64,000 nt of DNA, taken from the NCBI GenBank assembly GCA_963931925.1, contig OZ007570.1:32541295-32605294 (forward strand). Reading direction: 5' to 3'. How positions within the stretch are numbered: position 1 is the stretch's first letter; each line of letters opens with the position of its first letter. The DNA comes from Onchidella celtica. Its lineage: Eukaryota; Mollusca; Gastropoda; Systellommatophora; Onchidiidae. Below the pieces are notes generated by a model, which ran no database searches, was not told the origin of the DNA, and was given only the letters and a program-made list of their open reading frames with translations. Positions 11,437 to 18,339 of the stretch are shown here, in pieces. Both the position numbers and the translations under genes were made by a program.

Positions 11437-11500
<64 letters not shown>

Positions 11501-11540
11501 CCAGGAGAGAGGATGAGAGGTCAGAGGGGGACAACAGGGG

Positions 11541-11597
<57 letters not shown>

Positions 11598-12040
11598 GGG
11601 CACAAAGAGAAGGGCAAATAGACAGAGAAAGACACAGACACAGACAGCAGGGAAAAAAGACAGAGTGGGGGGGGGGAATACAAAGAGACAGAGACACAGA
11701 GATCACGGGGAAAAGACGGAGACACAGAGAGCAGGGGGAAAAGACAGAGACACAGAGAGCAGGGGGAAAAGACAGCGACACAGAGAGCAGGGGGAAAAGA
11801 CAGCGACACAGAGAGCAGGGGGAAAAGACAGAGACACAGAGAGCAGGGGGAAAAGACAGCGACACAGAGAGCAGGGGGAAAAGACAGCGGCACAGAGAGC
11901 AGGGGGGAAAGACAGAGAGAAGGAGACAAGGAGGGAATAGTGAAAAGGCAGACAGAGACAGAAAGAAGAAAAAACGCACACAGATAAAGAGAAAGACAGA
12001 GAATGGAGGAGAGACAGGCAAAAAGAAAGAAAGAGAGCGG
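11430..12040. repeat. Purine-rich array: (GA)n plus 28-bp minisatellite
   Basis: Two long (GA)n tracts (about 11440-11500 and 11545-11590) are followed by about eight copies of a 28-bp unit built from GACAGAGACACAGAGAGCAG plus GGGGAAAA (11706-11916). The whole 600 bases are over 85 percent purine on one strand. Long open frames in several phases here are artefacts of the repeat. Confidence 0.95.
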
Positions 12041-12439
12041 CTGTAGGTCTTGTCAAAACCCCGGCGAGATTCGAATTAGCGTGAAATTTTGAAGGCGCAT
12101 GACTTCCCTTTCGATCTGCAAAAGATTTTTTTTTTGTTTCCATTATGGAGAAGTCTTTTTTAAAGCTTGCTTTGTTTCGCTGATTCCACTTTCAATCACG
12201 TTTTCACGAAGGCATGTTCCCATGAATAGATCATTTTCTTACCATCAAGATATTTGAAAAGTTGCCACTGCTATCAAGTATTACATTAAGCAATCTATCT
12301 AAGAAATACAAAAAGGTATTCATCCATCTTTAAGATTCGCTAAATTTTGTAGATGACCCTACACAACAATCATTCTCGGCGCTGTCACGAGTAAGGTTGA
12401 TGGCCTTGTACGCCACGAGTCTAGGGGGTAAACTTAGTA

Positions 12440-12476
12440 AGGCCTGTGTCCACTATTACGATATCAGAATTCTGAT
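12440..12476 (+). repeat. Left terminal inverted repeat of the Harbinger element
   Basis: Starts AGGCCTGTGTCCACTATTAC and continues GATATCAGAATTCTGAT. It is the exact inverse of the right end (17237-17273). Subterminal copies of TTCTGTTCTGATTT follow inside and could be transposase-binding sites (inference). Confidence 0.92.
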
Positions 12477-12639
12477 TTCCCCTCAAAACTTTGCAGAAAG
12501 TCCGTTGCGTTTACACAATTACAAAATCAGAACGAAACTGCGTGCTTTCTGCTTTCTGTTCTGATTTCCCCTCCGAATTCGAAAATAGAACTGTTTCTAT
12601 TTTCTGTTCTGATTTCGGAATCCTTGACCCAGCTTTAAA

Positions 12640-15600
12640 ATGGCGCTGAGGCTAACAGTGACGGAGAACTTCATCTATTTGTTCGAATATGAACCAGTCT
12701 TATGGGACACAAAATCTTCTAATTATCAGAATAAAGATGCCAGGAATGCGGCCCTGGAACGTATTGCAAGAGCCTCTTGGGCTAGAAGAAAACGGTAAGT
12801 TCATACATCAATCATGAATTAGGCAGCACCTATCTGTGTCAGTTTTCGGACTGTCTTAGTTTTCGGGAGTGACTTTGGTTGTGTTAGAATTGTCATTACA
12901 GTATTGTATTTGTGGGTATGACTGATTGCCTAAGTATGAATTATGCATTGTTCTTCAGTGAAGAGTGTAATTAAGTGCTTTTTTAAATGGTTTTGACCCC
13001 GTATCATGACTAGTAGTAGTAGTAGTACTAGTAGAGACGAGCACTAGATCTAGATCTAGTTACTGGATAGATCTACTATCATCTAGCAGGAATACACGAG
13101 TGTTGGACAATCATTCTCGTAACTACCTACTTCGTGTGACTTGTGCTGTGCTACGATACCACTGCTTTGCTGATACAGTATAGCTCCAACCAGTAAACAA
13201 AAGCATGAACAACTATTGGGGCTCTTTCAGCAGATCACCAGATGGACAGATTGACCATCCACCACCCCAGGAGAAGGAGTTCATGTATTTATAAACGTCT
13301 ATCCCATCCAAGGCTGGGTTATTCCATCAAGTAATGCTTTTCTTAAAAGTGTAGGAATGAAGATGCAACTGCTTTAAGTTTTTAAACTTTTCAATAAATA
13401 ATTCGGCACATAAACCTCATTATATTCTTGTGTATTATCGTTACAGGAGATGCTGTCAAGTCAATAAAAGAGCGAATAAAGCAACTTCGCAGTACATTTA
13501 CAAAAGAGCTGAGGGCTGTTCGTGACAGCAAAAGAAGTGGAGCCGGAACTGCCGATGTTCATGTGCCGAAGTGGAGGTGGTTCAGCAAACTGCATTTTCT
13601 TGAGCCACATGTGTCAATCAGGAGCGGTCTAAATAATTTAAATGTATTGTAAGTAGCATTGATCCAGAATGTTTTTTGCTCCACCTGAATGGTGCGTGCT
13701 TTCGATGTCGTCAGCGCTAATGTGATGTTCAGCAAATCCATTGTTTATTTGTGATACCAAATCTTTATTAACGTGGTTCTAGCTAGAACAATACCAATTT
13801 GTGTGATGAATTTACTAAGATTAAACTTAAACGACACTTCTCTGTCGTATGTATTTCATTTTTCACTGAGAGATTTTAGTTCATATTTAACTGAAACAAA
13901 GGAGTGAAATAAATTCTAATTTGTTTATTGGAGCTATCATATAGTTGAACATGAAACCCCCAAATGTGTGGCTTTTGAAAAAAAAAATCAATGAGGTATC
14001 TTTAGTTTTCTCTTTTAATTTTTTTCTTTGGGCCTTTGTTTTCAAAACGTGTAATGAAAGTTGCTAATTCTGACAGACTTTATTTTTATTTTGGTTATTG
14101 TGGTTAAGTTAGTACGTCATGTATGTTATCAAATTTAATGAGTTTGGGAACTGGATATAAAATATGTTATCTAGATCTAGTCCCATGGTCTGGATGTGTG
14201 TCATTATTGTCATGTATTGGTATTTAATGTATTGTAATTTAACGCTGTGATTTTGGTAAACAGTAATCTGGACCCTTGATATAAAATAATTTTTGGAGAT
14301 TCACAAACAACAACCAACTTTGTACAAATTAGTATAGTTTTTAATACATTATACAGAACTTAATACAGGACATAGAGTGGCAAAAGATTAAAATAGAAAA
14401 ATAGAAATAACTCACTGTCTTGGCACAATTTGTTAAGAATATGAAGTTCACCATTTTATTACTTGAAAAAAAACAATTTAAAGCAAAAAAAAACAAAACA
14501 CTTGACTTTTTGGCATGCTTACATTTGCACACACAAGGCAATTTAGCAGTCCCGAAAAGATATACTAGACATGTAAATGTGGGCAGAAGAAAATTTATTT
14601 ATTCTTTGAGGGAAGGTTAAACTGCCATTGCACACTGCCAACACTGTTGAAATAATTGGCAAAAATCTCTCTCACACCTCTTGCATCAGCCCCACTCCTG
14701 TTTCCTCCTTGACTTTGTATGCATCTTAAATTATTATCATTAAGCTTATGGTCTATTCCTGTTGAATAAGCCATATCCATCTCCTTCATCAGATAATTAT
14801 GAAGGGCAAGGGCTGCCAATGTTACATTTGTTGCCTTTTCAGGGCCCAGCGAAATGGTCGTTTGAAAGACTGCAAACCGCTGTACCATGATGCCAAATGC
14901 ATTTTCTGCGCAGCGGCGCGCCCTTGATAGCCTGTAGTCAAAGATGCGTCTCCTTTCTCTTTCCTGTTGTGGTACATCATACCTCTCGGGAAAAGGTTTC
15001 AGCAAATAGGGTTTAAGTGGGAATGCATCATCACCCACAATTACAAACGGTGACGGACAGTCAGTCCCTGGGAGGGGCTTGGCAGGAGGAACATGTAGGG
15101 TTCCAGTTTCCAGTCGTTTAAAGAGTGGTGAGTCCCTGAAGACTCCAGCATCCCCCGATCTGCCATTGGCCCCCACATCCACATAAATAAATTTATAACT
15201 GCTGTCAACCAGTGCCAACAGAATAATACTATGTACTTTGTAGTTATAGAAGACAGAACCTTGTCCTGTTGGTGCCTTCAGAGCTATATGTTTCCCATCA
15301 ATGGCCCCTAAACAGTTGGGAAAGTTCCACCTCCTCTCAAAGCCTTCAGCAATTTTCTGCCAGTCTTCCTCTGTCCGCGGAGTCTGTGAATAAAGAATAT
15401 AAAACTGTATAGTGTAATAAATTGTATTTTTATTGTTGTGGGTGGTTTTTTTTGTTTTTTTTTTCAAAGCTAACCATATTAGATCTACAATGTATTATTT
15501 TATTCAAACCAAACATTAAGAATGGATGACTTTCTATTTCCAGCCCCCTGCACAAAATCCCACCACCAGTCAAGCTATCCAACAAGACAGTTTGAATTTA

Positions 15601-15966
15601 GGAGAGAGTGAACCTTCACCTGCGGGGTCATCCCCACTCCTTTTTGGAGAGGACATAGTGTCTACAATGACCATCACGAATGAGGAGGGGGATATTTTAA
15701 ATCTTGAGACGACTGGTGAGGGAGCAGCTACTCCAGGCAAGACAAGAAAAAGGCAGCGGGAGCCTTCTCCCGATTACGGGACTGAAATTTTAAAAGAGAT
15801 ATACCAGAAAAGGCAGCAGAAGGCACAGAATAAGTCATCCAGACATTATTATTTTGCAATGGACATGTGTGTCCAACTTGATGCCATGGACCAACGAAAG
15901 GCCATGGCATTAAGAAGAGAAATTACGAAGCTCATGCTGGAGTACACAGCTGATGCTGCTGAGTAA
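12640..15966 (+). CDS. Harbinger-associated MADF/BESS DNA-binding protein
   Basis: Exons read by eye: 12640-12794, about 13447-13648 and 15544-15966. Exon 1 starts with an ATG and reads ENFIYLFEYEPVLWD, TKSSNYQNKDAR and LERIARASW, the first half of a MADF domain. Exon 2 (SIKERIKQLRSTFTKELRAV, PKWRWFSKLHFLEPH) gives the second half. Exon 3 is a linker plus a C-terminal RHYYFAMDMCVQLDAMDQRK helix resembling a BESS motif. In PIF/Harbinger elements the second protein binds DNA and helps bring the transposase to the nucleus and the ends (family knowledge). At the strongest splice sites the frames of exons 1-2 and 2-3 do not join cleanly. Either other splice sites or a small extra exon are used, or the gene carries small lesions. 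Its last exon lies inside the transposase's second intron. Confidence 0.78.
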
Positions 15967-17108
15967 GAAAATTAAAAATTGAACATTGACAAGATTGCTA
16001 TTTGAGTCATTTTGTTTCCTAGCTACATTTGTTTGTTGTTGTTTCTTTTTTTTTTCAATTTTCTCTGCCAGTTTCTTTTCCTTTCTTTTTCTCACCTTCC
16101 TCACTTTTGATGTTGATGGTCTGTGAGTGCGAGAGTCTCATGTGACAAGACACACTGTTATTGTTAGTAGTATTATTTGGCATACAGGTTATCTCTTGGG
16201 AATATTATGGTAAATGGTAGTTACAATAAAGTGAAACTGATGTCATTTTCCCTCTACCATTGCATTTTATACAATATATATTAAAAAAAATAACATTCAA
16301 TAAACTAAAAACATTATAGCAAGGCTCATTGACAAACATAATTATTTCAAGTAGAAGTGATATAAAGTATTACTTGATACTGCTGAGAGTGCATTTTCTG
16401 ATAATTTTTTTTCTAAAAGTAAAAGGTAAAAGATATGCCCTTCACATCAGAACCACATACCTGAAGATACTTCTCTTTTAGGACATCATAGATTGCAATA
16501 CATGTTTCATGCACTATCCTGGAAATTGTACATGGAGGAATCCTGTATAAATATTGCAGATTGCGAAACTTGCTGCCTGCAGAAAAAAACAACAACAGAA
16601 ACATGCATGAAACTGAAGAAATAATCAGATATTTTGCAACAACAATTTATGATTATGACTATACTCTAAAATAAATTAATGTCATATCATTATTTACACG
16701 AACAAATTAACAAACGGACTAAATCAAACTGCATTAGGCAGCCACATACATTGAGTGTTTACCTGAGGCCAAAAAATTCAGAGTCAGTGCCAGTCGCTCC
16801 CCAGGTGGTATTGCTTCCCTCATATGCGTATTTTGTCGCTTGATGAGAGGTGTTACAAGTTCCAAAAGCACTTCAAAGTGGCACAGATCCATCCTCAGAA
16901 ACGAGGTGTATGTGGGTGGGTCTTCAGCAGCCAATTCCTTTAAAAGATTGGTGTAAGCACCATAGTTTTCACGACGCTGAATCCATGGACGAACCCATAC
17001 ACTGCGTCTTCTTTTCTTCTTCTTTTGCCGTGATTCGATATGTTTCAGGGCTAGCAGAGTCTCAAATAAATCGTCATCATCACTGTCAGAACTGTAAGCG
17101 GACGCCAT
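14595..17108 (-). CDS. PIF/Harbinger DDE transposase
   Basis: Three exons on the minus strand, 17108-16763, 16576-16461 and 15383-14595, join in phase (346 + 116 + 789 bases) into a 416-residue protein plus stop. Exon 1 has an acidic N-terminus, a basic KKKKRRR stretch and a helical DNA-binding region (RMDLCHFEVLLELVTPLIKR). Exon 2 carries the helix-turn-helix-like RIPPCTISRIVHETC. Exon 3 is the DDE-4 nuclease core: first Asp in LGAIDGKHI, second Asp in FVIVGDDAF, Glu in RRCAENAFGI. All three catalytic residues are present and no stop interrupts the frame, so it could be active. The ATG context AAAATGGCG is good. It catalyses excision and reinsertion at TTA targets. Its last exon lies within the second intron of the oppositely transcribed MADF gene. 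Confidence 0.92.
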
Positions 17109-17120
17109 TTTGGAGCTGTT

Positions 17121-17273
17121 ATTCTGATCAGAATTCTGACATCATAATAGTGGACACACCCTCCGAAATCAGAACAGAAATCAGAAAGTTCAGATGCTGC
17201 ATCTGACTTTCTGATTTCTTCTCCTGCAGAATTCTGATCAGAATTCTGATATCGTAATAGTGGACACAGGCCT
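17121..17273 (-). repeat. Right TIR region of Harbinger, tandemly duplicated
   Basis: The outer terminus (17231-17273) and an inner near-copy (17121-17160) both carry ATTCTGATCAGAATTCTGA and a TAATAGTGGACACA word. The inner copy ends only 13 bases before the transposase start codon, so the duplication may have moved terminus-binding sites into the promoter. Confidence 0.85.
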
Positions 17274-17474
17274 TTAGGGAGAAGGGGATTTTAAAGTTGT
17301 TGACGAGCATAAGTAAGGTCGGTGGCCTTTGTTTGCCACGGGTGTAGGGGGTGAGCTTAGTGGGGGGGGGGGGGAGCAAAGCAAAGTGTTCACGAGCGTG
17401 AAAAGATAGACACGACTCGCTTAAAATGTGGTACCGTGTGCAAAACCCTCCAGGGTATAAATAGGTAGAAAGGC

Positions 17475-17990
17475 TCATTACATGACGCTCGCTCCCCATC
17501 CAGAGTTTGGCTGCACGAGATGACAGTCTGTGTGACCGTGGGGAACCATTGTGTTAATGGTCTTATAGTATGAAGTTCGTTCCCCATCCAGAGTTTGGCT
17601 GCACGAAATGGCGATCTGTGTGATCGTGGGGAACCATTGTGTTAATTTTCTTTTAGTATGAAGTTCGTTCCACCTCCAAAGTTTGGGATGCATGAAATGG
17701 CGATCTGTGTGATAGTGGGGACTATTGTGTTGATTTTCTCGAAACGTTGGAACCCTGAAACCTGGATTGAAGCTTGTCGTTTAAAGAATGTCATTTGAAG
17801 GCTGGAGGTCTTGAAGAAGGAATGGATACCCTTCGAAACAATCTACCCATGAGGGCGTGAGTGAAGCGCCTCATGAATCGTTGGAACCCTGAAGATTGTC
17901 GTTTGAAGATTGTCGTTTGAAGATTGTCGATTGAAGATTGTCGATTGAAGATTGTCGCTTGAAGATTGTCGATTGAAGATTATCGTTTGA
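17475..17990. repeat. Tandem repeats inside the solo LTR
   Basis: Three diverged copies of a unit of about 94 bases (CCATCCAGAGTTTGGCTGCA ... TGGGGAACCATTGTGTTAA) at about 17495-17745, then about seven copies of the 14-mer TGAAGATTGTCGAT with variants at 17883-17990. Internal tandem repeats are also seen in the other two large LTRs here. Confidence 0.8.
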
Positions 17991-18339
17991 ACCATGGAGA
18001 TGTGAAAGTATCAACGAGGAGAACAGCTGTTGACCAGGACTTTTTAAGTATCATTAGTTAAGTTATAGAAAGAAAGGGTTTCGGGAAAAATCGCCATGTC
18101 CTCGATAGGAATTTTTGCATGTCTTTATTTGTTTTTTTCTTTGATTGTACATTTTGCCTCTTGTATGAGTTGGTATATTTGGTAGAAGCCACTATGAAAC
18201 TCATCGTGAAATAAATAACGGTTTTCATTTGAAAATTCACTCCATGTGTCCGTTGGTCGTTGGTCTGCTTGCTTGGTTTGATACTTACTTTAAAGGGAGA
18301 ATGAATTAGGAACAGTTCACGAAAATTCACCACGTGACA

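Follow-up and report, generated by a model that had tools for sequence, protein, structure and literature searches.

The analysed stretch, hereafter the window, comprises 64,000 nucleotides of Onchidella celtica (GCA_963931925.1, contig OZ007570.1, labelled C4, positions 32,541,295–32,605,294 of the forward strand). Its positions 12440–17273 are a copy of a PIF/Harbinger transposon, which fits this group in its terminal inverted repeats (TIRs), DDE domain, MADF gene and family-level target duplication. The transposase and MADF genes are modelled as convergent and interlocked, with the last coding exon of each located in an intron of the other. This reciprocal nesting is shared by many copies and by several diverged families within one genome, which is a stronger result than the layout of a single copy. 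On the sequence comparisons described below, we consider it probable that the two genes are spliced as an interlocked pair and that an old layout has been kept by lock-in.

Three-exon models for both genes were fitted by comparing copies and are given here with the nearest polyadenylation-type motifs.

12640–12794, + strand: MADF exon 1, frameshifted in the window copy by a one-base insertion (copy comparison)
12795–13446, + strand: MADF intron 1 (GT and AG ends)
13447–13643, + strand: MADF exon 2, in which the MADF domain ends (Pfam and copy comparison; copies of a related subfamily read AAT/GTAAGT at the donor, the slash marking the exon end)
13644–15543, + strand: MADF intron 2, holding the antisense transposase exon 3 (fitted model)
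15544–15966, + strand: MADF exon 3, last coding exon (copy comparison and fitted model)
17108–16763, − strand: transposase exon 1 (relatives and fitted model)
16577–16762, − strand: transposase intron 1 (fitted model)
16576–16461, − strand: transposase exon 2 (relatives and fitted model)
15384–16460, − strand: transposase intron 2, holding the antisense MADF exon 3 (fitted model)
15383–14595, − strand: transposase exon 3, last coding exon, with the DDE_Tnp_4 domain (open reading frame, Pfam and fitted model)
16225–16230, + strand: nearest AATAAA motif past the MADF stop codon (motif only)
14594–14599, − strand: closest AATAAA motif, at the stop codon of the transposase (motif only)

An earlier note on this DNA had placed the last exon of each gene inside an intron of the other, and the fitted models recover both exons with exactly the boundaries it gave. 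All eight junction dinucleotides of the models in the window are GT or AG. The transposase is open for 416 codons across its three exons, and its DDE_Tnp_4 match (E 4.4e-24, residues 182–350 of 416, above the Pfam cut-off) lies entirely in exon 3. The frame of this catalytic exon contains no methionine ahead of the catalytic region, so the exon needs an upstream exon. Exons 1 and 2 of the second gene give a MADF match (E 8.4e-16) when the query is the typed protein read across the frameshift of the window copy. MADF proteins from three related loci also exceed the Pfam cut-off, and an unbroken MADF frame is present in 10 members of a set of 40 sequences, made up of the window and 39 copies. 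By eye, the C-terminal part of MADF exon 3 resembles a BESS domain, with no Pfam match, and no relative of the transposase was found among solved structures at E 0.01.

Positions 14595–15966 (1372 bp) belong to both coding spans, which run on opposite strands, and about 1.6 kb separates the nearest AATAAA-type motifs, which are motifs only; the overlap of the pre-mRNAs would be at least 1.37 kb. The earlier note expected pre-mRNAs antisense over more than a kilobase; the geometry agrees with this, while the modelled coding exons alternate and show none of the exon overlap that marks exon-overlapping cis-antisense pairs. Mature coding regions would therefore not pair, and double-stranded RNA would need unspliced RNA or unmapped untranslated regions. 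A regulatory use of the interlock is possible.

Recurrence of the interlocked order across the genome

The relative positions and strands of matches to four pieces were compared across the genome (1.14 Gb, 43 contigs). The pieces were the N-terminal part of the transposase (T12), its catalytic exon (T3), a part of the MADF gene (M12) and the MADF last exon (M3). These searches scored the best candidates only, so that the counts are lower bounds, and the counted loci are copies, not independent families. Rows representing second fragments were removed before counting, 5 in the T3 search (141 of 146 used) and 9 in another position search (141 of 150 used); 51 of the 122 rows of the MADF exon 3 search entered the T3–M3 test.

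Among the 141 T3 matches, 103 had an M3 match within 3.5 kb, and in all 103 it was antisense and on the 5' side. This arrangement was present in 46/46 T3 matches of the window family, in 2/2 with 63–64% identity and in 55/93 with at most 52% identity. In none of the 141 was the nearest M3 within the same limit in sense orientation or 3' of T3. Genes placed simply tail to tail would have M3 located 3' of T3, contrary to these counts. All four pieces occurred nearby in 33 of the 93 distant T3 matches, and 32 of these 33 showed the order T12, M3, T3, M12 with the expected strands (queries of the L053 type, 6-kb limit); counted from M3, the same order test gave 55/56. For the L052 type, T1, M3 and T3 were in order in 15/15 cases, and M3 was antisense and downstream in all 44 T1 rows with a nearby M3 (first 86 of 150 rows).

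The layout was also followed in individual diverged relatives. A genome search with MADF exon 3 yielded four diverged loci (L048, L049, L050 and L051) in which the order is kept as far as each locus is preserved. L049 reads T1, T2, M3 (antisense), T3, and L050 reads M1, M2, T3 (antisense), M3; these two represent one family, with T3 97% identical between them and 63–64% identical to the window. L051 contains T2, M3 (antisense) and a partial T3; in L048, M3 is accompanied by an antisense T2, and T3 has no match. Two additional loci, L052 and L053, were picked from T3 matches at 48% identity, and the MADF proteins of both exceed the Pfam cut-off. In L053, where each gene has two exons, the interlock is complete and T3 is preceded by a phase-0 junction, like that of the window. 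The interlock is complete in L052 too, yet there the transposase has a fused exon 2–3, and the MADF last exon occupies the intron that separates it from exon 1. Donor and acceptor phases match in L049, L050, L052 and L053, and T3 is about 45% identical across distant families. Comparison with other copies, which the earlier note proposed as a check, shows the interlocked layout recurring both in sibling copies and in these diverged relatives. This recurrence and the sibling copies with both frames open go beyond chance. By sequence, four distinct families can be named (window, L049/L050, L052 and L053), L048 and L051 probably represent two more, and the spacing of matches suggests that further interlocked families exist.

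In the L052 type, T1 matches mostly stop at the last residue of the query, as a shared exon end predicts, and this is also seen in families in which no MADF last exon was detected. A genome search with DDE_Tnp_4 gave 1393 candidate places, of which the best 150 were scored, and many of these contain single open frames of 385–523 amino acids; transposases without introns could presumably not carry the interlock. A relative was sought in viral contigs, where eight stretches fitted a pattern and none was confirmed.

Element ends and sibling copies

The ends of the window copy and their flanks are as follows.

12440–12476, + strand: left terminal inverted repeat, beginning AGGCCTGTG (arm comparison)
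17237–17273, − strand: right terminal inverted repeat (arm comparison)
12437–12439: left flanking triplet GTA, the expected place of a 3-bp target duplication
17274–17276: right flanking triplet TTA

The inverted arms, measured as 12439–12476 and 17237–17274, are 38 nt long and 100% complementary, in line with the TIRs of PIF/Harbinger elements. Identical TTA or TAA flanks, the 3-bp TWA duplication of this group, were found in 18 of the 28 two-ended family sequences. The flanks of the window copy differ (GTA on the left, TTA on the right), and its MADF exon 1 contains a one-base insertion, so the description of this element as intact in the earlier note does not hold. The right end also contains an additional terminal repeat farther inside (window 17127–17158), which has the same orientation and is 94% complementary to the left end. 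Tandem arrays occur on both sides of the element, at 11437–11597, 11686–11918, 17482–17739 and 17890–17991, with units of 2, 28, 88 and 14 bp. Near-identical copies of the element are present at many places in the genome, which suggests recent activity.

In the comparison of the window with 39 fetched sibling copies, the one-base insertion that breaks the MADF frame of the window was present in none of the 27 siblings aligned with it. Both three-exon frames are open in 9 of the 40 sequences. The transposase is open with a broken MADF frame in 8, including the window, and with an incomplete MADF gene in 3; MADF alone is open in one sequence, and neither frame in 19. An 85-bp unit that is single in MADF exon 3 of the window forms an array of 24.1 repeats with 98% match in L043 (108–2156, other strand), a minisatellite growing within a coding exon; additional units are also present in L034, L038 and L040. 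In L024, L028, L029 and L032, identity to the window element is about 91–93% in the left part and 98–99% in the right part, with an abrupt switch near element position 2072, as if these copies had recombined between subfamilies.

Splicing, selection and alternative explanations

We infer that splicing of both genes follows the models. Junctions read GT or AG in copies that keep the sites, with the exceptions of one CT (L023, MADF exon 1 donor) and six exon 2 donors that fall in an alignment gap. These six copies (L024, L028, L029, L032, L041 and L044) read AAT/GTAAGT at the MADF exon 2 donor. In the subfamily of the window (window positions 13644–13654), five extra bases place a weak and a strong exon 2 donor side by side, and the same six copies have GTAAGT only; the paired donors could alter the MADF isoform. 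The ratio of non-synonymous to synonymous substitution (dN/dS) between L049 and L050 is 0.18 in T3 (Fisher p 8e-5) and 0.31 in M3 (Fisher p 0.026), silent positions in both last exons having changed faster than amino-acid positions. Between subfamilies A and C it is 0.18 for MADF exons 1 and 2 (L025-L032), and between A and B it is 0.25–0.30 for T3. For broken copies such as L041, the ratio in MADF exon 2 is near 1.

Under the explanation that we favour, each gene would have to splice out an intron carrying the last exon of the other in antisense. A rearrangement that freed one gene would damage its partner, and the pair would be inherited and lost together. The order would persist because neither gene could be excised or moved without harm to the other, and the layout would be old. 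It may have originated by tandem duplication of both last exons followed by reciprocal loss, and a possible consequence is antisense overlap of the pre-mRNAs without overlap of the coding exons.

Several observations weigh against this explanation. In 38 of the 93 distant T3 matches, no M3 was detected within 3.5 kb. One of the 63 T12 matches with M3 within 5 kb has it in sense, against 62 in antisense. With queries of the L053 type, the M3 closest to the T3 match at C10:15624130 is 5 kb distant and 3' of it, although adding the L052 query reveals an M3 on the 5' side; for the T3 match at C13:43123906, the closest M12 is 4.5 kb distant in the 5' direction. We think that these exceptions to the order are pieces of neighbouring elements. 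In the L052 type, T1 is antisense to a nearby T3 in 1 of 21 rows. The transposase intron that hosts the MADF last exon in L052 differs in protein position and phase from that of the window, L049 and L053. Two interlock types with different transposase introns are not what simple lock-in predicts, and this change of host intron suggests either multiple origins or a rebuilding through duplication with reciprocal loss. M3 is only 17–22% identical in all compared family pairs but one (window family and L050, 35%), so that its common descent between distant families rests on position and orientation, not on sequence. The MADF gene is open in 10 of the 40 sequences compared with 20 for the transposase. 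A 10-base insertion common to five copies (L011, L016, L019, L021 and L023) shifts MADF exon 3, more frame changes occur in this exon within subfamily B, and dN/dS in the exon 3 tail is 0.58–0.61 between subfamilies A and B. The exon 2 donor in the subfamily of the window is GTATTG, and the GTAAGT five bases downstream would shift the frame. Finally, a copy lacking the intron across transposase exons 2–3 was sought, and none was found among the best 40 of 103 candidates.

Selection might instead maintain the interlock if convergent transcription, by polymerase collision or double-stranded pre-mRNA, lowered the yield of full-length transposase and MADF with increasing copy number. The opposite-strand overlap of the coding spans would suit such self-limitation, as would the retention of the layout across families and its second form in another transposase intron. 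However, the modelled coding exons do not overlap and lock-in alone could hold the order, and we regard selected self-limitation as unlikely. A broader proposal is rather doubtful: in MADF-type Harbingers the interlock would be a device that selection has kept and that has been rebuilt, existing in two intron versions, with the genes inherited, expressed and silenced as a unit and the convergent pre-mRNAs acting as a brake. The interlock may also have arisen repeatedly or been rebuilt, not inherited unchanged from a single ancestor, as the different host intron of L052 and the low identity of M3 among distant families would allow. Both types nevertheless share the same gene order and strands, T3 identity stays near 45% throughout, and no duplicated or non-interlocked intermediate locus was seen among the few readable loci; we regard this origin as quite improbable.

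It is very improbable that the interlock is only apparent, the pieces being separate open reading frames that are not spliced as modelled. Such a reading would accommodate the lack of a spliced copy among the candidates scored and the internal methionines in MADF exon 3, but the catalytic-exon frame has no methionine before its catalytic region, junction phases agree in several families and the piece order is nearly constant. Inheritance of an old, spliced interlock remains the explanation that we prefer.

Comparison with known systems

The relevant passages on PIF/Harbinger transposons describe a transposase together with a Myb/SANT or MADF gene as two open reading frames, without mention of reciprocal nesting (PMC9179366, PMC4482050, PMC9710019), and the words orientation, opposite and convergent are absent from PMC9179366 and PMC4482050. 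The Onchidella elements resemble the systems in these passages in having two genes, a DDE domain, a MADF (Myb/SANT-like) second gene, TWA duplications in the family and TIRs. No description of interlocked Harbinger genes was found in an open-licence library; subscription papers and Repbase lay outside this search, and priority is not established. The elements provide many natural replicates for asking whether interlocking acts as a regulatory device or as a one-way ratchet, and whether the two genes of Harbinger are kept together with its help. Annotation is affected as well, since both genes could be assembled wrongly if open reading frames were joined according to their order and strand.

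As far as the sections concerned describe them, PIF/Harbinger elements of Medicago likewise have two genes and a transposase with introns, but their second open reading frame is located up- or downstream of the transposase and not within its intron (PMC2213677). The co-domesticated transposase and MADF pairs of insects, in the account given of them, bring the same two protein types together as neighbours; they differ in being host genes that are not always codirectional and for which that account does not describe an interlock (PMC9710019). Cis-antisense pairs are reported as frequent in mammals (PMC1449890), and the animal examples presented there and for POU5F1/TCF19 (PMC8493703) share with the Onchidella elements the opposite strands and overlapping spans. 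These pairs are formed by host genes, and in several of them exons are shared or overlap, whereas in the Onchidella elements the coding exons alternate and the arrangement recurs across related transposons.

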